DNA of 64,000 bases from Halapricum desulfuricans (GTDB lineage Archaea; Halobacteriota; Halobacteria; Halobacteriales; Haloarculaceae), in assembly GCF_017094505.1 (NCBI RefSeq), contig NZ_CP064787.1, forward strand, positions 2,046,001-2,110,000, read 5' to 3'. This document shows positions 30,834 through 44,141 of the stretch, in pieces (positions within the stretch are counted from its first letter, which is position 1; the number at the start of each line of letters is the position of its first letter). Both the position numbers and the translations under genes were made by a program. The notes beneath the pieces were generated by a model. That model worked only from the letters and a program-made list of their open reading frames with translations. It had not been told where the DNA came from and did no database searches.

Positions 30834-30912
30834 TACTGGTGGCTATACGTTCGTAACGATATCTGGCACGACGGCGTGCCAGATCAGTTCGAAATGGTAT
30901 AGCCACCAGTAT
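30833..30912. repeat. Palindromic intergenic element C
   Basis: A perfect 16-base inverted repeat (30833-30848 with 30897-30912) encloses a perfect inner hairpin (30861-30870 with 30875-30884, atctggcacg). It shares gtaacgat and a gcacgac/gcgtgc core with the reverse complement of element B, and has the same overall length (80). It begins at the A of the TGA stop of the DUF1648 gene and lies 35 bases from the stop of DUF368. It may serve as a bidirectional terminator. Confidence 0.8.
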
Positions 30913-30947
30913 GACACGCGGCGTGCAACCGGCGCGTCGTTCCTGGG

Positions 30948-31922
30948 CTAGTACGACAGGTCGTCGGTGTAGTGATCGAGCGCGAGCACTGCCCCACCAC
31001 CGGCGAGGACGGCAAGCGCGAGCGGCGCGACGGCCGCGAGCGAAAGCGTCTCGACGTTCGCTCGCATCTCGATGACCGGAAGCCGAAGCGCGCCGACCAT
31101 GAGGCTGACAAGAAACGACAGCGTCGCCGCCCGGTAGCGGTTGAGCGCCCACCGGATCGCGTGAGCGACGGTGACGACGCCGATGACAGCGCCGCCGACG
31201 AACGTCACGACTGTCGTCGCCGGATCGAGAAGCGACGCGATCGACCGCTCGCCCAGCAGCGCCGCGATCGCGCCGTCGACGAACGCCGTCAACGTCCCGG
31301 TGAGATACTCGTACTGGCCGAGCAAGACCAGAAAGAAGGCCCCGGAGACGCCGGGTAGAATCATCGCGACGATAGCGATCGCTCCGGAGACGAACACGAT
31401 CGGCAGCGTGTGGATCCCGTCGGCCCCGGCCGTCACGCCGGAGACGAGAAACGCAAGCGCAAACCCCGCGACTGCGGCGACAATTCGGCCGGGCGTCGAC
31501 AGCGACAGCTGGTCATAGAGGACGATCGCCGAGGCGGCGATCAACCCGAAGAAGAACGCGAACGTCGCCCCGGGGGCCTGCTGTAAGGCCCCGTAGACGA
31601 CCCGGGACATCGCCACGACGGCCGTGACGATCCCGGTCCCGAGCACGACCAGAAACGGCACGTCCATCTCGACGAGCCGCTCGTACAGCCGCCGCCTCCC
31701 GGACGAACTGCCGACACCCCCCAGCAGGGCGAACGCGTTCGGATCGAGGTTCGTGATCGCCGTGATGAGCCGCTCGTAGATGCCCGTGATGAACGCGATG
31801 GTCCCGCCGGAGACGCCGGGAATCGAATCGGCCATTCCCATCGCGACGCCTTTCAGGTAGACCGACAGCCAGCTGTACAGGGGCGTGTCCCCGATGGCGT
31901 GGCGCTGGCTGTCGTCAATCAC
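30948..31922 (-). CDS. DUF368 membrane protein (polyprenyl-phosphate carrier recycling candidate)
   Basis: A 324-residue polytopic membrane protein with the DUF368 hallmark repeats: KGVAMGMADSIPGVSGGTIA near residue 24, and ILPGVSGAFFLVLLGQYEY near 190. About eight helices are visible. In bacteria, DUF368 proteins have been linked to flipping of undecaprenyl phosphate. Here the gene directly follows aglB (2 bases between the aglB stop and this start), so by inference it could recycle dolichyl phosphate after N-glycosylation. It ends near palindromic element C. Confidence 0.85.
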   Translation of the reverse strand: MIDDSQRHAIGDTPLYSWLSVYLKGVAMGMADSIPGVSGGTIAFITGIYERLITAITNLDPNAFALLGGVGSSSGRRRLYERLVEMDVPFLVVLGTGIVTAVVAMSRVVYGALQQAPGATFAFFFGLIAASAIVLYDQLSLSTPGRIVAAVAGFALAFLVSGVTAGADGIHTLPIVFVSGAIAIVAMILPGVSGAFFLVLLGQYEYLTGTLTAFVDGAIAALLGERSIASLLDPATTVVTFVGGAVIGVVTVAHAIRWALNRYRAATLSFLVSLMVGALRLPVIEMRANVETLSLAAVAPLALAVLAGGGAVLALDHYTDDLSY

Positions 31923-31924
31923 GA

Positions 31925-34900
31925 TTACCCCGCGACTCTGGTGGTCGCCAACTGTTCGAGACCGATCTCGGGGGCGAGGAGGTCCGACGCGGTCTCGTTG
32001 TCAGTTGTGTTGTTCGATCCGTCCGTTTCGTTTCCGTTGGTACCGTCAGACCCGTCAGTCCCGTTACCGTTCGACCCGTCGGTTTCGTTTCCGTCGGTGC
32101 CGTCGGTCTCGTTCGTCGTCGGAAGCGTCGTCTGATCCAGCGTGACTTCGACCGGCTCGGGGTCCTCACCGATCACTTGTGCTTCCGTGACGTCCGCGGT
32201 GGTGTTGTACCGGATCCAGTCGGACCCGTCGTAGCTGATACCGGTCGAGAACGTGTACGACGACTCGGCACGGACGCTGACGTTCGTGTATCCGTTCTCC
32301 GGGCCCCACTCGTCGTACCCGGTCGTCGAGTACGGTAGCGTCATCGTGAACGTCCCGTCCGGTCCGGCCTCGGCGCTCTGGACGTACTCGAAGGTCTGGT
32401 TCGTCGTCGGGATCTCCATGTTCACGCTCGCGTAGACGGTTTCGTTCGACGCGCCGTCGATCTCTCCCTCGACTGTCGCTCCCGGAACGCGCTCGAAGGT
32501 CTTCGTCCACGAAGAGTAGCGCTCGGCGTACGCGAAGGATTGCTGGACACCGGTGAACGCACGTCCGAGCGACGGTTGCATCGCCGTGATCGGGTTCTGC
32601 CGATCTTCGGTCGCGTGAACGAGCCGGTAGTGTTCCAGCGCGGGCACGTGCTCGCTGGGGAACTTCCCGAGGCCGCCGATCTGCGCGTTGGGGTTGTCTT
32701 CGACATATTCCTGTGCGGCCTCGAGGCTCGGCTCGAAGCGCGTCGTATTTCCTTCGCCCGGTGCCGGCACGGAGGGGACTCCCTCTCTGCTGTCCGTCTG
32801 GACGATCGGGACCGGACTGTCGCCACCTTCGAACTCGCCCTGTGCGTACGGCGGAAGCTGGCCGATGGCGTTCCCCGGCACGTAGTCCGCCCAGGCACCG
32901 CTCCCGTGGTATCGATAGAGCCGGTTGACCATCGTCTCGTAGTAGTCCTGCTTGTGAACGGTAAGGTACGGGCGTGCCGGGACGATATCGCCGTCCTGGT
33001 TCTGTCTGAGCGTGGCGACCTGCTGGTAGTAGTCGTCCGTCGAAACGCCGTCGACGAACGATGGGGGGGCGAAGAACTTCGTGCGGAATATCGGGTCCGA
33101 CGCAGTCGCCATCTTCCAGTCGATCATGACGTAACGCGTGTCGCGGTTCTCCCCGTCGCTCATCGTGTCCCGCCGTTCCTCGTCGGCCCGACTCTCGCTC
33201 TGTGCGAGCAGGAATCGGGCTGCCTCAGTCGCCGACTCCTGGAACGGATTCGCGACCGGGATCCGCTCGGCCACGCTGGTGATCCAGTGACCGTAGTCCC
33301 ACCACGAGAGGACGCCGTAGGACCCTTCCTCGTAGTCGTAGTCGTCGGTCTTGGCGTACTCGCCCCAGTACTCGAGGTCGTTGCCAGCGTCTTCGAAGTC
33401 ACCGACGGCCGGGGTATTCTCACTTATCCATTCGAGGCCACCGTCCCACTGCTGGACGCCGCCCGGCCCACCGTTGAACGTCGCGTTCGACTGCGTGACG
33501 GGGTCCTGGCGATACCCTCGGTCGTCCATTGCCATGACCATCGGTGCCGTCACGAGCAACAGCACCGTGAACACCGCCATGAGCTGGTAGGGGCTGACAC
33601 CGACCGAAGCGCCGTCCGTGACCGTCGTGAGGTATCTGAACCCGGTGCCGATCGCGTATGCGGCCATCACTGCGACCGGAACTGCAAGGTAGTACCCGAA
33701 CCGGGCCTGAGTGTACGTCATAGAGAAGACGACGGCCAGCCACAGCGAGACGAACAGCAGTTCAGACCGCCTGTTCGAGGTGATCACTTGCCGTGCGACT
33801 GCGAGAATCACGCCGAGGGCAGCGATGACGTGTGCGAACCCGTACCAGTTGTAGAGAGTCGTCCCGGGGTCGCGCAGCGGCGTGACTTCGCCGACTGTCG
33901 CGGCCGCCGCACTTGGCTGCTCTCCGACGAGTCGACCGAACACGCGAACGAGCTGGTCCGCGAAGAGGTCGAACGTCGTCGGGACGAGGACCATCAGTCC
34001 GAGCAACCCGCCGACGACGACGCCGACGGCCGCGAGCGGGTACGCCCAGACGGGTTCGGAACGCCGGTCGAGCACGCGACTCAGTCCGGCGAGGAACCCG
34101 ACCCAGACGACGCCGGCCAGCGCGAGCCCGGGCTGCAGCAGCGAGAACTTGACCGGCGCGATCCTGAAGGCGTCCAGCGGAAGCACCATCAGGACTGCCG
34201 TGACCCCGAAGAGGACGCCGCTGACGAGCAACATCGGCTCCGGAGTCGCCCCCCGGAGGTGGTCGAGGATTGCCTGAATTGTGACGTACATGCCGAGGAC
34301 CCCGACCAGCACGACACCCGGCGGCCATACCCACATGTAGAGCGCCGTTGCCACACCGGCAAGCGCCGCGTACCCGACCGGCCTTCGAAGCCCGGCCACG
34401 TCACGGTCGACGACCAGTTCCCAGATCGGCTTCTCGGTGTCGGCGACCTGAAGGGCGACGACGATCGCCAGTGCCGCGAGCGCCTGGGTGAACGCCTCGG
34501 CGACGTGGTGATCGGAGAAGCCGACGAGACTTCGGCTGAGGAAGCCGCCGGTCGAGAGTGCGACGATCAGTGCAGCGACGACGCCGCTAAACCGGCTCTT
34601 GCCGAGTCGCTTGCCGAGGAAATACGACAGGACGACGGTCGACGCGCCGAGGACCGCCGGCGTGAACAGGTGCACCATCCGGATGGTCGTCTGATCGGGG
34701 TTCCCGAGGCCGACGACCAGCGCGACCGTCGCGACTACCTGATCGAGGATCGTCCCGAACTGCGAGACGGACGTGCCGGTCGGGAAGTTCGTCCACGCCT
34801 CGAAAGGCATCGTCTCCGGCCAGTTGCGCACCGTGTACTCAACCTGCCGGAGGTGATACCAGGCGTCGTTCCCGCTGAACATGACTTCCCCGTCGACGAC

Positions 34901-35035
34901 GAAGTTCCCCCACGTCCGGGCTCGCACCCACAGCGCGAACACGAACAGCGCGAGAACGGACGGGACGTGATACCACGTGCTGAACCACTCGACCGCCTCC
35001 TCGAGGTCCTCTGACATCCCTTCGTCCTGACTCAT
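31925..35035 (-). CDS. aglB: Oligosaccharyltransferase AglB
   Basis: Transfers lipid-linked glycan to Asn in N-X-S/T sequons outside the cell (S-layer, archaellins, pilins). A 1036-residue STT3-family protein: about thirteen membrane helices in the first 500 residues, EAVEWFSTWYHV near residue 9, the catalytic-type acidic loop in FSGNDAWYHLRQV near 55, and the WWDYGHW motif near 577. A DK/MI-type helix may be VMIDWKMAT near 640. The C-terminal tail (about residues 980-1022) is an Asn/Glu/Thr/Asp/Gly repeat full of potential sequons. It is in an operon with DUF368 downstream. Confidence 0.96.
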   Translation of the reverse strand: MSQDEGMSEDLEEAVEWFSTWYHVPSVLALFVFALWVRARTWGNFVVDGEVMFSGNDAWYHLRQVEYTVRNWPETMPFEAWTNFPTGTSVSQFGTILDQVVATVALVVGLGNPDQTTIRMVHLFTPAVLGASTVVLSYFLGKRLGKSRFSGVVAALIVALSTGGFLSRSLVGFSDHHVAEAFTQALAALAIVVALQVADTEKPIWELVVDRDVAGLRRPVGYAALAGVATALYMWVWPPGVVLVGVLGMYVTIQAILDHLRGATPEPMLLVSGVLFGVTAVLMVLPLDAFRIAPVKFSLLQPGLALAGVVWVGFLAGLSRVLDRRSEPVWAYPLAAVGVVVGGLLGLMVLVPTTFDLFADQLVRVFGRLVGEQPSAAAATVGEVTPLRDPGTTLYNWYGFAHVIAALGVILAVARQVITSNRRSELLFVSLWLAVVFSMTYTQARFGYYLAVPVAVMAAYAIGTGFRYLTTVTDGASVGVSPYQLMAVFTVLLLVTAPMVMAMDDRGYRQDPVTQSNATFNGGPGGVQQWDGGLEWISENTPAVGDFEDAGNDLEYWGEYAKTDDYDYEEGSYGVLSWWDYGHWITSVAERIPVANPFQESATEAARFLLAQSESRADEERRDTMSDGENRDTRYVMIDWKMATASDPIFRTKFFAPPSFVDGVSTDDYYQQVATLRQNQDGDIVPARPYLTVHKQDYYETMVNRLYRYHGSGAWADYVPGNAIGQLPPYAQGEFEGGDSPVPIVQTDSREGVPSVPAPGEGNTTRFEPSLEAAQEYVEDNPNAQIGGLGKFPSEHVPALEHYRLVHATEDRQNPITAMQPSLGRAFTGVQQSFAYAERYSSWTKTFERVPGATVEGEIDGASNETVYASVNMEIPTTNQTFEYVQSAEAGPDGTFTMTLPYSTTGYDEWGPENGYTNVSVRAESSYTFSTGISYDGSDWIRYNTTADVTEAQVIGEDPEPVEVTLDQTTLPTTNETDGTDGNETDGSNGNGTDGSDGTNGNETDGSNNTTDNETASDLLAPEIGLEQLATTRVAG

Positions 35036-35988: not shown

Positions 35989-36339
35989 ATGAGCACGTCA
36001 TCGGCCGAGGACGACCTCTCGGAGGACGAGCGACGCGGTCTCGAACTCATCCGTCAGTCGGGGGGCGTCCACCAGAGTGACTTCTGGAAGGAACTGGACG
36101 TCAGCTCTCGAAAGGGCAGCCGGATCGTCGAGTCGCTCGTCGAAGAGGACCTGATTGACCGCGAGGAGACTGTCTACAACGGCCACAACACCTACTACCT
36201 CTCGCCGAAGGCCAAAGATCTGGACTTCTCGCTGTTGATGGCTGGAGACATGCTCTCGCCGTTCATCGGCGACGAGGAAGTCAATGCACAGAGCGACGCC
36301 TTCACCCAGTGGATCATGAACCTGGCATACGAGGAGTGA
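35989..36339 (+). CDS. Winged-helix transcriptional regulator
   Basis: A 116-residue protein with a MarR/Lrs14-like wHTH at about residues 12-70 (GGVHQSDFWKELDVSSRKGSR, then VESLVEEDLIDRE and a wing). The C-terminal 40 residues may mediate dimerisation. The upstream spacer (ttcgaaag-like, taagcg) contains no clear operator. It is immediately upstream of the VWA pilin-like gene (130 bases), so it could regulate pili, but nothing in the sequence proves this. Confidence 0.8.
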   Translation: MSTSSAEDDLSEDERRGLELIRQSGGVHQSDFWKELDVSSRKGSRIVESLVEEDLIDREETVYNGHNTYYLSPKAKDLDFSLLMAGDMLSPFIGDEEVNAQSDAFTQWIMNLAYEE

Positions 36340-36439
36340 GGCGAATCTCACTTCGAGATCGGATATTAATATCTACTGATACGACTGCTCAGGTGAGCCC
36401 CTATCTTAGAGGACGCGTCCATCACCAGCACCAAAACAT

Positions 36440-36449
36440 CTTTTTATGA
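36440..36449 (+). promoter_or_regulatory. TATA box of the VWA pilin-like gene
   Basis: ctttttatga is about 21-30 bases upstream of the ATG at 36470, giving a leaderless mRNA. It shows that this gene has its own promoter, separate from the pilus operon on the other strand. Confidence 0.6.
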
Positions 36450-36469
36450 TTGGATAGAGATACGAAACT

Positions 36470-38782
36470 ATGAGACGGCGGAAGAGAGGATCAATACAGG
36501 GGGACGAGCGCGGGGTTTCGGAACTTATCGGTGCCGTCATCATCGTCGGACTCGTGCTGACAGGGTCGGTACTCGTCGTTTATTTCGGGACGAACGTGAT
36601 CGACGAGACGAGACAGGGCCAGAGCGACGAGTCGACTGAAATCGGGATTCAGGAAATCGATTCGCGTTTGAGCACGCTGTCGACCTCCAGCGCGGCGACG
36701 ACAACTAGTTTCGAGATAGGATCGAATATCGAAGGAGACGCCCATCTCGTCGAAAACGAGGGATCCCTCAACCTGACAGTCAACACGCGCAGCACGTGTT
36801 CCGTGCAGGAGCCACTTGATTCTGTGCGCATCGAGCGCGATGACGGGCAAATCGTGGCCTACGAAGCCGGTGGAACGTGGATCAAAAGTCCCGACGGCGG
36901 TGCGATTTACAATACGGCCCCGGACGTGTCCTACAGGAACGGGACGATCGACGTCTCGCTGCTGAACCTCACTGGTCGCGTCAGCGAAGGGTCTAATCAA
37001 GCAGTCACGGATGTCAACACGTCTCGACGCGATAGCAAGAGCGCCGTCAATACGGTGTTGCAGGGCGAGTGTGTCCGCCCGGACAACGTAACGCTCCGCA
37101 TTCAGAGTGATTTCTATCGAGGATGGGCGGACTATCTGGAGACCGAGACCGGACTTGAGCCGAACGCATCGCCGGCACCGGGTGACAGTTATCTGCGTGT
37201 TGACGATACCACGCAAACGGTCACCGTCTATCTGAACCAGAGTTCGCTCCCGCGGCGGACGAACGACGAGATCAACAACGTCGTCAACGTGACCGGTTCG
37301 GACTACATGGATGAGGTGACGATTTCCGACGATGGAATCCTGATCGATAAGGGCGTCAACAACACGTATACGGTCTACAGCGAGCCGATCTCCGAGCGGC
37401 CCGAAATCGGGACCGTCCGCAAGGTGTCCCAGGCCGATAACGTGACTCGACCGCCGCTCGACGTGGTTTTCGTCGTCGACGAGTCGGGGTCGATGGCTTG
37501 GAGCACTGCAGGCGACTCGAAGGCCAAATACGAGGCTGTTCGGGATGCAATGAGAGACTTCACAACGTATCTCGACAGCAATATGGATCGCGTGAGTCTC
37601 GTAGGCTACAACCAGTACCACACTGGAGGCATTGTCGATAACGGGGGCGTAGATTACTCTCTCGACGGAAATGATCGGGAAATAAATGAAGGATCTAACC
37701 GGGGTGCGATATATAGAACGAATAATCGGATGCTAACGGCAGACTTTGTTGAGTTCAATAGTTCAACTGTCCCTGAAACTGAGGCGGTCGGTGGTACGTA
37801 CTCAGCGGGAGGGATGAAAAAAGCGTCGAGCCTCCTTGATCTCCAGAGTGACGAAAGCCGAAACCGGATCGTTGTGATGTTAACGGATGGGAAAAATACA
37901 GGATCAGACACTTGGCATATCGGGAAATACTCATACATCGGGAGCAACAGTGCGACGATCGAGCTCGCCAAACGAATGTATCGGACGGGAGTGACTACCT
38001 ATACTATCGGATTCGCCGATGACGACGATAGCGTTGACAAAAACTTCCTGAGAAACACTGCCGACGCGGGCGGTGGCAAGTACTACTTCGCAACAGACAG
38101 TGAGGAACTTGAAGATGTCTTCTCTTCGATCGCCGAGCGCGTTTCGAGCACCGAACAGGTCGGCCACTACGGCGTGACCACGAATCTCTCCACTGACGAT
38201 ACAGTACATCCGCCACAGATCACTGGCGATATCAGCCGCGTTGCAACCGCGACCGCGGATGGTAAGGAGTGGCTGAACGTCAACGATCCCACGGCACCGT
38301 CGACATTTAGCCACGCCTTCGCCGTCAGTGGCGGGGACATGGTCAACTTCACAGCCACTCAGTACAGCTGTGACAAGTGGGTCGGGACTGGACAGACGGA
38401 GGTCATTAACGGTTCGTCTATCCCCGTCACGCGGTGTGCAGAGCTGAACACTACCGATCCGACCGTCATAGGCGGTGACAACGCCACCGTGTTCACGAAC
38501 GACGACTCCGCAGTGTTCAACGACTTCCTCGACAACACGACGTCAGCCGAGTGGCAAACCAATCTCACCGAAGCGCTCGACGACTACGGCGGCCTCTACG
38601 ACGAGTCGTCCAAAGAACTGACTCTCGATAGCAACCAGGTGCTGGTTCTGTATGACTTCCCGGACGGAAAACACACCGACAACCGGATGTTGCTGCTCTA
38701 CAGCGTCGGTCTCTCCGAAGAGGAAGCACGCCCGACCGGCGTGATCGATATCGATATCGACAACGTCGAGATATCGAACTGA
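36470..38782 (+). CDS. VWA-domain protein with type IV pilin-like N-terminus
   Basis: A 770-residue secreted or pilus-associated protein. The N-terminus has a basic leader (MRRRKRG) followed by the pilin-like GVSELIGAVIIVGLVLTGSV, a probable class III signal and hydrophobic helix. A beta-rich region follows, then a VWA domain at about residues 330-560. Its MIDAS Asp/Ser is in VFVVDESGSMAW near 335, and VVMLTDGKN near 465 supplies a second ligand region. The C-terminal 200 residues are Cys-poor and Asn/Asp/Thr-rich with many sequons. Probable adhesin or pilus tip. The VWA-coding part (about 37650-37960) is clearly less GC-rich than its flanks. Confidence 0.85.
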   Translation: MRRRKRGSIQGDERGVSELIGAVIIVGLVLTGSVLVVYFGTNVIDETRQGQSDESTEIGIQEIDSRLSTLSTSSAATTTSFEIGSNIEGDAHLVENEGSLNLTVNTRSTCSVQEPLDSVRIERDDGQIVAYEAGGTWIKSPDGGAIYNTAPDVSYRNGTIDVSLLNLTGRVSEGSNQAVTDVNTSRRDSKSAVNTVLQGECVRPDNVTLRIQSDFYRGWADYLETETGLEPNASPAPGDSYLRVDDTTQTVTVYLNQSSLPRRTNDEINNVVNVTGSDYMDEVTISDDGILIDKGVNNTYTVYSEPISERPEIGTVRKVSQADNVTRPPLDVVFVVDESGSMAWSTAGDSKAKYEAVRDAMRDFTTYLDSNMDRVSLVGYNQYHTGGIVDNGGVDYSLDGNDREINEGSNRGAIYRTNNRMLTADFVEFNSSTVPETEAVGGTYSAGGMKKASSLLDLQSDESRNRIVVMLTDGKNTGSDTWHIGKYSYIGSNSATIELAKRMYRTGVTTYTIGFADDDDSVDKNFLRNTADAGGGKYYFATDSEELEDVFSSIAERVSSTEQVGHYGVTTNLSTDDTVHPPQITGDISRVATATADGKEWLNVNDPTAPSTFSHAFAVSGGDMVNFTATQYSCDKWVGTGQTEVINGSSIPVTRCAELNTTDPTVIGGDNATVFTNDDSAVFNDFLDNTTSAEWQTNLTEALDDYGGLYDESSKELTLDSNQVLVLYDFPDGKHTDNRMLLLYSVGLSEEEARPTGVIDIDIDNVEISN

Positions 38783-38846
38783 TCGCGTAGACGAGCGTCA
38801 GATCGATCTGAGATCAAGTCCCGGTACGTCTGCAATTGCGATCAGT

Positions 38847-39641
38847 CTATGAATACGTAATCGAGATGGTTGACTGGCGAACATACACGCTATCGAGATC
38901 AGTACTCGCGCCGCACTGAACCGTCACCGAGGCATCGGTTTTACCCGTGACCGTCCAGTCACCGTCCGCGTTCTCGAAGTAGTTAGCCCACTCTCTGGCA
39001 CGACTCTCACCGGAGAACGTCAATTCCACCTCGATCGTATCGACCGTCGAAGCGTTGCCGGTTCCCGAAGACGAGGCGGGATAGAGCAGCGTCTGGTTTG
39101 TCAGTCGGCCGGTGACTCGGAGCGTCCCCTCGCCACCGATCTGCCGCTCAGTATCGCCTTTGAGAGTCACGAACGAAAGGATCGCTGTCCCGTCCGAACA
39201 GACGAATCCGGGACCGCTGGTGATGATTCCGGCATCCGATCGCTCCTGAACACGGAACAGCGCCCCGTTCTCGTACCCGATTTGGACATCATTGTTCTCG
39301 TAGACCAGTGCATTGAGCGGGAACAACTCGGTATACGTCTTGCCGGAGTCCGTTGTGACGTTCACAGTAGCTGAGGACGATGGCGAGAGCGTGAGCGACC
39401 CGCCGCTGAGATCGATTGCATCAGTCCGAGTGGTTGCCTGACTTTCTTCGAGTTCGGTGAACGAGCGCGAGATCAGATCGAAGGTCCGTTCGGCGTTGTT
39501 CAGTTGCTGGTTCTCGTCGAACGACTCGAGCTCCGACAGCCCGAACGTCGCGACGAGTCCAACCGACGTGAGGATGATCCCGAACATCAACACGAATCCG
39601 ACGACGTCACTCACTGACCGTTGATCCGCACGAACAGACAT
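38847..39641 (-). CDS. Pilin-like protein (DUF7289 type)
   Basis: A 264-residue protein with a short basic leader and hydrophobic helix (SVSDVVGFVLMFGIILTSVGL at about residues 9-29). A coiled region (NNAERTFDLISRSFTELEES) and a beta-rich Ser/Thr ectodomain follow. Similar proteins accompany PilB/PilC modules in Halobacteria and are named DUF7289 (from memory). It is directly adjacent to the LamG/PKD gene and ends 64 bases from the VWA gene on the other strand. Confidence 0.75.
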   Translation of the reverse strand: MSVRADQRSVSDVVGFVLMFGIILTSVGLVATFGLSELESFDENQQLNNAERTFDLISRSFTELEESQATTRTDAIDLSGGSLTLSPSSSATVNVTTDSGKTYTELFPLNALVYENNDVQIGYENGALFRVQERSDAGIITSGPGFVCSDGTAILSFVTLKGDTERQIGGEGTLRVTGRLTNQTLLYPASSSGTGNASTVDTIEVELTFSGESRAREWANYFENADGDWTVTGKTDASVTVQCGASTDLDSVYVRQSTISITYS

Positions 39642-42278
39642 TTATGATTCCTCCAGTGAGACACCGTGTAACTCGGGACTTCCCTTGGGTAAGTCCGAGT
39701 GCAGTTCGACTTCGACCCAGAACGTATCGGCGTTTTTGTTGATTCCCGTCAGTGTTTTGGTGCCGGATCCGTCATCGGCCGGTTTGAGTGTAACCGAATC
39801 AGACCGCACGTTGCCGTTTTTCCACTCCGCATGTACTGTCAGTTCGATTTCTTCTCCGCTATCGATATCGGCGTCGTAGAGTATATCGATACCACTTTTA
39901 CCTATCGTCGGTCCTGACCGCTCATCCGTCGTAATTGAGCCCTCAGTCACATCTGCTAACTCGTCGATTTGGCTCCCACTAAGTGCGTTATCGTAGATCC
40001 GAACGTTATCGATAGTCGCGTGGGTATTCCACTGATCAGTTACCGTGCTACCCCCAATGCCGATATCTGAGGAGGAAGATAATATTCTAGTCGGTGCTGA
40101 ATTATCTCCAGTTTGAAACCCGTTGACATACGACTGACCCTCGGTCTGATCGAAGGACCCGGCAACATGATAGTACTTATTTGGACTATTCACATCATGT
40201 ATATCCTCGCCAGGATATGTGGTGTACCATTTGGAATCGCCATATATTTCAAAAGCTATATCGTCTCCATACATTCCGAGCCCATACGACTGATATTCTT
40301 CCAGAAGGACCTGCCAGTCAGAGCCGCCGTTGCTATGCGTATTCACCCACATCGACACTGTCACCTCGTCATTATTGGACATCTCCAGGGAAGGATCGTC
40401 GGGAATTTCGATATGATCGTCATTCCCGTCGAATTTCAAGGCAGAGGTCCCTGAGGTCCCGTCCTCGACAACTGTCGGTGACCCGTGCTTGATGCCGTCA
40501 TTTCCACCGACAACATCTTTCACAGAGCCATCGTCGAACGGCCAGTAACTGACCAGCGAGGAATCAACACTCCCGGGCGGGTTGCCGAGCGCGACGCTGT
40601 CAGCGTCATAGTTGCCGAGATTCTGATGAACAACGGTATCCGACGACTGGGCACTATCCCAGTCGCCCGTTGTCTGCCAGGCGTAATCGCCGCTACCCAA
40701 GATCGTCGCAGTCCTGTTTCGCGGGAGTGAACTCGCCGCGTTACCGGACGTGTCCTCTGCACTGTGCAACTCAACGTAGTACGCCCCGGGAGACCGCGGG
40801 AACGATGCCTCGTACGCGTAGGTCTTGCCGGATTTCGACTCCGAAAAGTCCGACAGCGACAGCGACGTGCTGGTAGAGCCGCTCCCGATTTCGGCGCTCA
40901 GTGAGCCCAGCTGGCGAGTCGAGTCGAAACTGACGACGATATCATCACTGACTGCTTCAACGTCGTAGCTCGAAACGTATCCCCGGTCAGGATCCACCAC
41001 TGTTCGGTTAGTCGCACCATTCACCCAATAGCGGAGGCCAACTGCTGTGTCTTCTGCATTGCCGCCGCCCTTGTATTTACACATACTGACAGTGACCGTC
41101 TCAGAGGGGTCGATCACAACCGGGTCATTATCGAACTCGCCCTCAGCACTCCGGAGTCGAACGATCGTCCCGTCCGGTTTGTCCCGTAAGTCGATCGACC
41201 CGAACTCATACTCCCTGTCCCAGACGCCATCGCCGTCTGTATCGAATGCGATCTCACTTCCGCTCTTGTACTCGAGCTTGTTTATGTTCTTGACGTCAGC
41301 TGCCGGGTTGATGCTTAGATGCGTCACTCTAGCAGCGTCTCCCCACTCGTTGGTCACACTGAATGTGGTACCGACGCCGCCACACCTACTTCCGCCACCG
41401 GCTCCGGAAGTAAAGTCGTCGTTATACGCCAGACCCGAAACGCGCATCAGGCGCGTCCGGGTCGATCGTGCGCCCTCGTCGTCCTCGACCCGTAAGGTCA
41501 CGTTGTGCTTTCCGGGCGACAGCGGTGTGCTGTACGTCTCGCTCCCCGAGTGTTCGAGCGAACCGTCGATGTGCCACTCGTAATCGACGATCGTTCCGTC
41601 CGGGTCGCGGCTATCTGCCGCGTCGAAGTACACTGGAGTTCCACTCTCTGGGAAATCAGGAGAAAACGTGAACTTCGGGATCGGGGGTCGGTTCGTCGGA
41701 TCGATCACCTCGCCGTACTTGTTGCGATCGATGTCTTGCCCGACACCGATCTGCATCGTTCGCGTCATCGGCACGACGGCGCCGCTACTGCTCCCGCCGC
41801 TCGTCTTCGTTGCTGTGAGTATGAACTCCGAGCCCGAGCGCGTCAGGTCAGCGGATACGTCCGAAGGGACCGAAAGCGGTACTGTCTGTGAGACGTCTTG
41901 GCCAACCACAGACATAGCGAGACAGGTGTCGGTCACACCAGCACAGGCCCCCGAGGTGTTCTCGTACGACACCCTGTATTCGTTGCCGGCGATTGCGTCC
42001 GGGTGCTCGACAGTCACCGTGACTGATCCCCCCTGTTCGCTCAACGCGACAACTTTCTGAATGTCGTCAGCCAATCGATTCCCGATCGTATTCAATTCGT
42101 CCTGGGCTGCGTACTCCTGTTGATCGGTGAGAAATCCATTGGCCGTACTTAACAGTAGTACCAGCAAGACGCCGGTGATCCCGATCGTCAAGACGTGTGT
42201 GACGGGCGTCGAGAGCCCGCGATTGTTCCCCCGTACTGACTCGACGTTAGTTTCCCCGCGTCGTCTGCTATCGATCAT
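39642..42278 (-). CDS. Large pilin-like protein with PKD and LamG domains
   Basis: An 878-residue probable surface protein. After a basic leader it has a hydrophobic helix (THVLTIGITGVLLVLLLSTA, near residues 27-46). Beta-rich parts follow, then a PKD domain at about 195-280 (PVYFDAADSRDPDGTIVDYEW) and a linker. A LamG/concanavalin-like domain lies at about 570-780 (LVSYWPFDDGSVKDVVGG, IDNVRIYDNALSGSQI). LamG and PKD are common in adhesins that bind glycans or other proteins. The LamG-coding stretch (about 39960-40460) is visibly AT-richer than the rest. Domain order suggests an adhesive pilus tip or fibre. Confidence 0.85.
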   Translation of the reverse strand: MIDSRRRGETNVESVRGNNRGLSTPVTHVLTIGITGVLLVLLLSTANGFLTDQQEYAAQDELNTIGNRLADDIQKVVALSEQGGSVTVTVEHPDAIAGNEYRVSYENTSGACAGVTDTCLAMSVVGQDVSQTVPLSVPSDVSADLTRSGSEFILTATKTSGGSSSGAVVPMTRTMQIGVGQDIDRNKYGEVIDPTNRPPIPKFTFSPDFPESGTPVYFDAADSRDPDGTIVDYEWHIDGSLEHSGSETYSTPLSPGKHNVTLRVEDDEGARSTRTRLMRVSGLAYNDDFTSGAGGGSRCGGVGTTFSVTNEWGDAARVTHLSINPAADVKNINKLEYKSGSEIAFDTDGDGVWDREYEFGSIDLRDKPDGTIVRLRSAEGEFDNDPVVIDPSETVTVSMCKYKGGGNAEDTAVGLRYWVNGATNRTVVDPDRGYVSSYDVEAVSDDIVVSFDSTRQLGSLSAEIGSGSTSTSLSLSDFSESKSGKTYAYEASFPRSPGAYYVELHSAEDTSGNAASSLPRNRTATILGSGDYAWQTTGDWDSAQSSDTVVHQNLGNYDADSVALGNPPGSVDSSLVSYWPFDDGSVKDVVGGNDGIKHGSPTVVEDGTSGTSALKFDGNDDHIEIPDDPSLEMSNNDEVTVSMWVNTHSNGGSDWQVLLEEYQSYGLGMYGDDIAFEIYGDSKWYTTYPGEDIHDVNSPNKYYHVAGSFDQTEGQSYVNGFQTGDNSAPTRILSSSSDIGIGGSTVTDQWNTHATIDNVRIYDNALSGSQIDELADVTEGSITTDERSGPTIGKSGIDILYDADIDSGEEIELTVHAEWKNGNVRSDSVTLKPADDGSGTKTLTGINKNADTFWVEVELHSDLPKGSPELHGVSLEES

Positions 42279-42398
42279 TGCATCCCCTCTCTTGGACTCG
42301 TGGTGCAGCTTGCTGCCGCCGCGAATATACTGGATCCTTCAACTACCGATGCGAGATCCGGTCGGTCCCGCATATACCCCGATGTTTCTGGCCATAAC

Positions 42399-42405
42399 AT
42401 ATAAA
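42399..42405 (-). promoter_or_regulatory. Possible TATA box upstream of the LamG/PKD gene
   Basis: Minus-strand tttatat in the 208-base gap between the two pilin-like gene groups is about 120 bases upstream of the ATG at 42278, implying a long leader. A closer AT-rich hexamer (42325-42330) is an alternative. The gap suggests that the two LamG-side genes have their own promoter. Confidence 0.35.
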
Positions 42406-42486
42406 TACTATGCTGCAGTTAGCGAACGCGAAAAAGCGCCATTACCGACAGTTAAGGAGAGTATCACGGGGCGCGCCCGAGACACG

Positions 42487-43464
42487 TCACGACCCGTAGA
42501 CGGAGACGTTTCTCGTCGTGGTGAAGTCCGTCTGGTCGGACCGATAGGTCACATCGACTTGTCCCTTCCAGACGATCGGTGACAGACAGGGGACGGGATC
42601 CCCTGGCGAACACGCTGAATAATCGTACGTACTCCCGTTAGCAGCCTCAGCATCGACGTCTTTCGACCACTCCGTGTCGACCGCCAGATCGTACTGCCCT
42701 TCGATGTTGTTTCCGTTCGAGATGCTGACGGAGTACGGCGGAGACAGCGTCTCGATCCCACGGAACGTACACTCACTGGCGAACGCTTTGCCACTCCGCA
42801 GATCCAGCAACACTCGGCCACCGGTCGACTCGCAAGTAGTTGTATCAGAACCGCCAGCACTATCTGTTGTCTGCACCCGCAAGTCGGCCCCGTTCCCGCC
42901 GTCCGAACGGTTGAGTTGGTACGTCATCGCTTCGTTCTCCCCGTCGACTTTGAGAGTCGTGTGTTCGCCACTCGTGTTTCGCAAATCGACGTTGACCACG
43001 AACCAGCCGATATCGACTCGATCGTCGGTGAACGACCAATTTGAGACCGTTGCTCCGCTACTCGAATACGTGAAGTTCCGATCGTGGTTTTGTACGATTC
43101 TCGTTGCCGTGATGAGCGTCTGGTTGTACGACACGTCGACGAATTTCGAACCGGATGACGCATACATGCGAGCCATCCCATCGCTGTAGTCAGCAATGCG
43201 ACGACGAACATTCGCGTTCAATTCAGATACCGTCCTCGTCTCGTTGGCGTGGTTGATCCGGAGCAGGAGGGATCGCACATCCCTTTGAGACTCGAACGTG
43301 AACTCGCTAATTTCGGACGATTCGACGCGGTCCTCACCTGTACCGACGTTCTCAGTGAACAGTACGGTGTTGACGACGACCGACAACCCGAGGATAATAA
43401 CTGCGAGTGCGACTGCGCCCACGAGCAACAACTGCCCGCGTGACGAGAGCTGACGGGAGGTCAC
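42487..43464 (-). CDS. Pilin-like protein (DUF7261 type)
   Basis: A 325-residue protein. RGQLLLVGAVALAVIILGL at about residues 9-27 is a pilin-like hydrophobic N-helix just after Arg-Gly. A helical region follows (QRDVRSLLLRINHANE), then a beta-rich ectodomain with Cys pairs near 210 and 240 and several N-X-S/T sequons. It overlaps the upstream gene by ATGA at 43461-43464, so it is in the pilB operon. Likely a minor pilin. Confidence 0.78.
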   Translation of the reverse strand: MTSRQLSSRGQLLLVGAVALAVIILGLSVVVNTVLFTENVGTGEDRVESSEISEFTFESQRDVRSLLLRINHANETRTVSELNANVRRRIADYSDGMARMYASSGSKFVDVSYNQTLITATRIVQNHDRNFTYSSSGATVSNWSFTDDRVDIGWFVVNVDLRNTSGEHTTLKVDGENEAMTYQLNRSDGGNGADLRVQTTDSAGGSDTTTCESTGGRVLLDLRSGKAFASECTFRGIETLSPPYSVSISNGNNIEGQYDLAVDTEWSKDVDAEAANGSTYDYSACSPGDPVPCLSPIVWKGQVDVTYRSDQTDFTTTRNVSVYGS

Positions 43465-44141
43465 CAGACGATCACCCGTATTTCGACAATATTGTAGACC
43501 GGCCCGGGAACGGCGTTCGGGACCGGATAATAACCGCTTTTCCCGTCGACCGGATTACGGGTCGGATACGTGTCGTACTGCCACAACTCCGCTGACCCGG
43601 CAGTCGGCGACGTCAGCGTCATGTTATCGTAAAGAGTGATCCGATACGACGCGACGACTGCGCTGTCTGAGGGTGTCCCTCTGGATGCGATGACTGTTCG
43701 TTGTATCCCATCGGACTGATTCTTCGGCAGGTACCGCATCTCGACGTTGTACATCCGGTCGCGTTCGTCGAACGTCTCGTTTAGCATCGTCCCCAGTGGA
43801 CCCGGTAGCTGTTCGGTCCCGTACCCGATCCGTGGATTCACTGCCCCGTAGAACGTTTGCCGACTCTGTGACCAGTTGCGAGCGAGTTCCGAGAGATGAC
43901 CGGTGTCGTTACTGCCGGCGATAGTGAGGATGTCTTCAGCCTGCTGTTTGATCTCCGTTCGGACACCCTGATCGACTGTTCCTCCTGTTGTCGGTGTGAT
44001 CGTAACCGCCTGAAGCGCGTATAACAGCGCGGTCAATACGACAACGGCGCTGATAATGCCCTCTAGAGTGTATGCTTGCCCGCGATCAGTTGAACTGCCC
44101 CCACTCGGTACGTTTCCTGTGATTGCATCGATCTCTTTCAT
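43461..44141 (-). CDS. Pilin-like protein (DUF7288 type)
   Basis: A 226-residue protein. The start at 44141 (MKEIDAITGN) was chosen because it begins one base after the preceding gene ends. The N-terminal leader is followed by DRGQAYTLEGIISAVVVLTA at about residues 19-38, a pilin-like hydrophobic helix. The ectodomain is Asn/Thr rich with potential sequons. Probable minor pilin in the pilus operon. Confidence 0.75.
   Translation of the reverse strand: MKEIDAITGNVPSGGSSTDRGQAYTLEGIISAVVVLTALLYALQAVTITPTTGGTVDQGVRTEIKQQAEDILTIAGSNDTGHLSELARNWSQSRQTFYGAVNPRIGYGTEQLPGPLGTMLNETFDERDRMYNVEMRYLPKNQSDGIQRTVIASRGTPSDSAVVASYRITLYDNMTLTSPTAGSAELWQYDTYPTRNPVDGKSGYYPVPNAVPGPVYNIVEIRVIVW

Follow-up and report, generated by a model that had tools for sequence, protein, structure and literature searches.

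Proteins of the DUF368 family were presented by Sit et al. (2022) as candidate undecaprenyl phosphate translocases (PMC9876793). In bacteria, loss of these proteins leads to more undecaprenyl phosphate (C55-P) at the cell surface, and the family is enriched in Halobacteria. A delta-vca0040 mutant of Vibrio cholerae is at least partially complemented by HVO_RS12060 of Haloferax volcanii, and the authors note that their data leave room for activities independent of transport (PMC9876793). Peptidoglycan is one of several surface polymers served by the bacterial DUF368 relatives (PMC9876793, PMC12826051), the DUF368 and DedA families are used conditionally in V. cholerae and Staphylococcus aureus (PMC9876793), and DedA/UptA proteins are implicated in the same lipid return (PMC12826051). 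Here we describe a DUF368 gene that directly follows aglB, the gene for the archaeal oligosaccharyltransferase, in a 64,000-nucleotide stretch of the Halapricum desulfuricans genome (contig NZ_CP064787.1, positions 2,046,001 to 2,110,000; hereafter the window), and we propose that its product returns the lipid carrier released by AglB.

The glycan of Haloferax is built on dolichol phosphate (PMC3871713), and AglB of Methanococcus voltae transfers from a donor linked to dolichyl phosphate (DolP), with dolichyl pyrophosphate (DolPP) proposed for Sulfolobus (PMC5222938). Because the Haloferax and M. voltae donors are DolP-linked, transfer by AglB would leave DolP outside the cell. The initial annotation of this locus had allowed for dolichyl phosphate or pyrophosphate as the carrier left outside; published descriptions of euryarchaeal systems bear out the monophosphate and not the pyrophosphate (PMC3871713, PMC5222938), so the scheme can do without a pyrophosphatase step. 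Forward flipping has been proposed for AglR/Agl15 (PMC3871713). For the way back, the account of the Sulfolobus pathway has DolPP recycled to DolP by a pyrophosphatase and names no translocase (PMC5222938), the string 'recycl' is absent from the main text of the Haloferax review (PMC3871713), and no protein credited with bringing spent DolP back in haloarchaea turned up in the portions of the literature searched. Neither the DUF368 family nor its likely activity is new; its partnership with aglB is undescribed in the literature searched, where we found no report joining DUF368 with AglB (the search was thin on subscription papers), and the main text of PMC9876793 contains neither 'AglB' nor 'N-glycosyl'.

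In the window, aglB occupies positions 31925..35035 of the minus strand and encodes 1036 amino acids. The protein matches NCBIfam TIGR04154 with 776 bits (cut-off 450) over model positions 2-830 of 831, a Pfam scan finds the AglB core and L1 domains, and among solved structures its closest sequence relatives are the oligosaccharyl transferase chains 5gmy and 3waj. The translation also shows the WWDYG motif. The aglB stop codon, TAA, is followed after two bases (31923..31924) by the GTG start of the DUF368 gene (30948..31922, minus strand, 324 amino acids), whose product matches PF04018, described in Pfam as undecaprenyl phosphate translocase-like, with an E value of 1.9e-61 and 208 bits (cut-off 26) over model positions 1-227 of 246. 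The coordinates, strand and spacing given by the initial annotation are therefore exact, and both identities are confirmed. This is the single DUF368 copy in the genome. Among 11 named relatives found, the one from Halapricum hydrolyticum is nearest, with 81% identity and an identical two-base arrangement. The same gap is present in loci L092, L093, L100 and L112 (L, G and f denote our locus, genome and family numbers). Such spacing suggests that aglB and DUF368 are co-transcribed.

The pairing extends well beyond this genus. We searched 242 haloarchaeal genomes for PF04018 and TIGR04154, using the best TIGR04154 match per genome (many have further, weaker matches) and filling in unlisted coordinates afterwards. 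At least one DUF368 gene is present in 239 genomes and both genes are present in 237; AglB occurs alone in one (G021), DUF368 occurs without a full AglB match in two (G118, where TIGR04154 matches are weak with a best of 1.3e-22, and G226), and neither gene is found in G187 and G206, two assemblies of one genus in 180 and 160 contigs. Linkage, meaning here that DUF368 lies on the aglB strand and no more than 4 kb downstream, holds in 171 of the 237 genomes with both genes, a count in which seven genomes (G229, G238, G232, G214, G234, G224 and G215) were set to linked from fetched loci instead of the coordinate join, and two (G231 and G239) were set to apart with no aglB within about 6 kb. By the labels that the search tool attached to the genomes, linkage is found in 52 of 73 genera and 9 of 11 families. 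No other arrangement within 4 kb occurs in any of the 228 genomes with coordinates for both genes, and chance adjacency is rejected on the strength of this single order and strand. The initial annotation had named a lack of conserved adjacency in other genomes as refuting its reading, and the core idea passes this test, with adjacency kept in most of the genomes that have both genes.

Forty-two linked loci were read individually, with gene starts set by a codon-usage script. In 19 of them the two genes overlap or are separated by no more than 7 nt, with 1-4 nt overlaps seen repeatedly in families f1, f2, f8 and f9; in five they are 1.5-2.5 kb apart. Seven other genes of the window were each found in at most two of the 42 loci; since these loci were picked for linkage, this compares the pair with its surroundings and not with unlinked genomes, and on this comparison general conservation of synteny is rejected as an explanation. 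Some DUF368 entries are listed with long open frames, which could signal an AglB-DUF368 fusion. For one of them, a 1066-amino-acid frame in G134, fusion is excluded, since aglB and DUF368 are read there in different frames according to their coordinates, compared by hand; this exclusion covers G134 only. The aglB-DUF368 arrangement is a real, conserved haloarchaeal gene pair.

Members of one homology cluster lie directly upstream of aglB in 33 of 58 aglB loci, and all four members scanned (two in L108, one each in L050 and L067) are family-2 glycosyltransferases. In L108 and L050, two of the five loci with the wide gap, a UDP-glucose dehydrogenase gene of the AglM type, identified by scanning, lies on the opposite strand between aglB and DUF368, and the intervening gene of L051, a third such locus, clusters with these dehydrogenases. 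In two loci where DUF368 is apart from aglB (L069 and L082), the gene before DUF368 falls in the dehydrogenase cluster. In H. volcanii, aglB is identified as HVO_RS12050 in two papers, one of which also gives aglF, aglI and aglG as HVO_RS12035, HVO_RS12040 and HVO_RS12045. Locus tags there run in fives, making HVO_RS12060, the gene used in the V. cholerae complementation, the second tag after aglB. We infer that HVO_RS12055 is aglM, which fits the aglB-dehydrogenase-DUF368 order of L108, L050 and L051; the Haloferax Agl cluster is described as HVO_1517-HVO_1531 with aglM (HVO_1531) at its end (PMC3871713), and a Halobacterium Agl cluster is described as VNG1048G-VNG1068G, the latter being aglB. 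Complementation of a bacterial mutant, which the initial annotation had put forward as a check, has in this form been published (PMC9876793).

The DUF368 protein itself carries two PGVSG motifs. Across 13 aligned archaeal and bacterial sequences (three of them bacterial), 33 residues are invariant, including P35, G36, S38 and G39 of the first motif and P190, G191, S193 and G194 of the second, so that both PGxSG motifs are retained. Identity to DUF368 proteins of Vibrionaceae is 31-37%. A search of solved structures by sequence gave no match up to an E value of 1, and an AlphaFold model built from 11 sequences reached a mean predicted local distance difference test (pLDDT) score of 52, too low for the model to be of use.

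From these observations we propose that the DUF368 protein encoded after aglB returns AglB-released DolP to the inner leaflet, a reading to which we assign a probability of roughly 0.6. Outside the cell, AglB would move the glycan from its DolP carrier to the target asparagine; the DUF368/PopT-type translocase would then flip the bare DolP from the outer to the inner leaflet, where Agl glycosyltransferases would recharge it. Expression together with aglB would keep the return of the carrier in step with its release. The proposal draws on the linkage in 171 of 237 genomes with its tight gaps, on the presence of DUF368 in nearly all haloarchaea searched, on glycosyltransferase and UDP-glucose dehydrogenase neighbours that match the H. 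volcanii agl order, and on the identity to Vibrionaceae DUF368 proteins. DolP as the substrate, the inward direction, the operon and N-glycosylation as the main client are each presumed here from gene context and homology.

Several findings weigh against this proposal. The two genes are apart in 66 of the 237 genomes, and in the family of the window organism linked and apart genomes are equally numerous, at 24 each; linkage is common and not universal, and genomes that lack it often carry a different DUF368 paralogue. AglB is without a DUF368 match in one genome (G021), and a linked-type DUF368 is without an AglB match in the assembly of another (G226). The window pair is adjoined by TANGO2-like and DUF1648 genes and by no glycosyltransferase, the TANGO2-like gene preceding aglB on the opposite strand being an exception among aglB loci. 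The window protein scores 187.1 and 75.4 bits against NF052564 and NF052563, the polyprenyl-phosphate transporter equivalogs, and is filed under neither because both scores lie below the cut-off of 400 bits; it may nevertheless work like these transporters. The orthology of HVO_RS12060 was judged from its position by locus tags and not from sequence, and the complementation result concerns that protein, the translocase function of the window protein being predicted. Finally, DedA proteins (PF09335), a second family of polyprenyl-phosphate translocases, are present in all 79 haloarchaeal genomes scanned, with three copies in H. desulfuricans itself, so recycling may be shared between DedA and DUF368. 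DUF368, to the initial annotation the obvious candidate, is not the only one; its role is plausible, and its interpretation as a carrier recycler is partly supported.

The history of the family bears on how special the link to aglB is. In a tree of 83 haloarchaeal DUF368 proteins, 23 never-linked proteins form a clade with support of 99/96. Among the 20 apart genomes sampled in this tree, 15 carry a paralogue of the unlinked clade and five carry a relocated copy of the linked type; both types occur together in G181, G143, G005, G209, G216 and G211. A second, quick tree, supported by the Shimodaira-Hasegawa-like approximate likelihood ratio test (SH-aLRT) only, comprised 75 haloarchaeal, 18 non-haloarchaeal and three bacterial sequences. 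When rooted, it unites all 75 haloarchaeal sequences as a single clade (SH-aLRT 100). Within a 33-sequence group (SH-aLRT 100) that also holds linked sequences of the Haloferacaceae type, it nests the unlinked clade (20 sequences after thinning, SH-aLRT 94). These topologies suggest one haloarchaeal origin of DUF368 with early linkage to aglB, and the linkage is probably ancestral in haloarchaea, as read by eye from a tree whose basal order is poorly resolved. The simplest reading of the tree suggests that a derived copy moved between families and displaced the linked DUF368. The unlinked copies of L083 and L085 belong to different families, yet are close in the tree, which is what recent transfer would give. 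A DUF368-like stretch, unannotated, in three pieces and outside the tree, lies on a 616-kb plasmid of Haladaptatus pallidirubidus (hit H1). Together with L083 and L085, it suggests a mobile DUF368 lineage.

These unlinked copies invite the view that DUF368 is a general DolP recycler for N-glycans, exopolysaccharide and glycolipids, whose place beside aglB was inherited without special coupling. Unlinked copies would then substitute for the linked one, as their presence in 15 of the 20 apart genomes allows. We found no shared partner of the unlinked paralogue: the neighbours scanned, among them chaperonin, MutS-like and peptidase genes, differ between loci. In four f3 loci (L039, L067, L079 and L089, by clustering, with L067 also scanned) the paralogue adjoins a gene of the glycosyltransferase cluster. 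The breadth of surface polymers served by the bacterial relatives fits as well (PMC9876793, PMC12826051). Mere inheritance sits less easily with a pair that outlasts each of the seven other nearby genes tested and with 1-4 nt overlaps that recur in four families, and we consider a purely general role rather unlikely. At the other extreme, AglB and DUF368 could form one unit in which DolP is handed over directly, the unlinked paralogue replacing the linked protein at the cost of this coupling. This stronger form is improbable on present evidence; were it true, haloarchaeal N-glycosylation would have a dedicated, physically coupled carrier-recycling partner.

A different division of labour would make DedA proteins the main DolP recyclers, with DUF368 acting conditionally, at high pH or high salt, as in Vibrio. 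DedA is present in every genome scanned, G021 has DedA and no DUF368 match, and conditional use of both families is documented in V. cholerae and S. aureus (PMC9876793), but the three DedA genes of H. desulfuricans lie at 1.79, 2.38 and 2.89 Mb, away from aglB at 2.08 Mb, and the substrate of archaeal DedA is putative; we doubt that DedA has the principal part. Adjacency to an enzyme that uses the charged lipid could also mean that DUF368 is an outward flippase exporting glycan-charged DolP for AglB. A search of the H. desulfuricans genome for pathway context returned four PAP2 matches and four PF13440 matches, the latter polysaccharide-flippase-type proteins that are presumably akin to AglR. 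With such candidates at hand, AglR/Agl15 already proposed for these steps (PMC3871713) and the bacterial rise in surface C55-P indicating inward transport (PMC9876793), export by DUF368 is very improbable. Inward return of DolP released by AglB remains the reading that we prefer.

Beyond haloarchaea, the pairing was not seen. Of 344 genomes of the phylum, 65 are haloarchaea, of which 64 match PF04018, and 279 are not, of which 45 match (a split counted by hand). The control genomes of Methanocaldococcus jannaschii, Sulfolobus acidocaldarius and Methanosarcina acetivorans, used with the search of the 242 haloarchaea, show no PF04018 match. No AglB was found beside DUF368 in loci from 20 of the 45 matching non-haloarchaeal genomes, searched with the window AglB at an E value of 1e-4, where DUF368 was recovered as an open reading frame (ORF) in 18 of 20, some contigs were short and a very divergent AglB could escape. 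Ten neighbours scanned in these loci include a uracil permease, a uracil phosphoribosyltransferase and aminoacyl-tRNA synthetases, and no glycosylation gene. In one locus (L125, 7471-9391), DUF368 adjoins genes for a uracil phosphoribosyltransferase and a uracil/xanthine-type permease, and ORFs sized like these, by size alone, occur in L127, L128, L135 and L136. The archaeal scope given to this step by the initial annotation accordingly narrows to haloarchaea, DUF368 being patchy elsewhere in the phylum.

Two further features of the window lie near the pair. A palindromic element of about 75 bp (30842-30920), with a DNA fold z-score of -4.25, lies where the DUF368 and DUF1648 genes face each other with their 3′ ends; it resembles repetitive extragenic palindromic (REP) sequences or miniature inverted-repeat transposable elements (MITEs). 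It has 70 matches in the H. desulfuricans genome (some places counted on both strands) and, in other genomes of the genus, 65 in G069, 27 in G178, 16 in G521, one in G165 and none in G522 (78% complete); there were none in 14 genomes outside the genus. On the other side of the pair, positions 36001-44000 have a G+C content of 0.56, compared with 0.60-0.65 in adjacent 4-kb blocks, and encode a number of large proteins, some of which look pilin-like at the N terminus by eye.

For a step of protein glycosylation in archaea that has no assigned protein, the aglB-DUF368 pair supplies a specific candidate, and with it a single target for deletion in a species amenable to genetics. The pair also connects two literatures, that on Agl clusters and that on bacterial DUF368 proteins, the latter having tested a Haloferax protein. 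That protein, HVO_RS12060, is among the closest known counterparts: it is a haloarchaeal DUF368 two tags after aglB, an order matched by L108, L050 and L051, and it differs from the window arrangement in having, by tags, one gene between the two where the window has none. DedA/UptA proteins belong to another Pfam family and are not beside aglB in this genome. With the bacterial translocases PopT and VCA0040, the window protein shares the PF04018 domain, both PGxSG repeats and 31-37% identity to Vibrionaceae members. It is set apart from them by an insert that follows the second PGxSG motif and measures about 20 residues at most (approximately residues 213-235 of the window protein); this insert is present in all seven haloarchaeal sequences aligned, linked and unlinked, and missing from the three non-haloarchaeal archaeal and three bacterial sequences aligned. 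The haloarchaeal gene is also paired with an oligosaccharyltransferase, and the carrier expected for its product is DolP, which, left outside by AglB, would be the analogue of the C55-P moved in bacteria.

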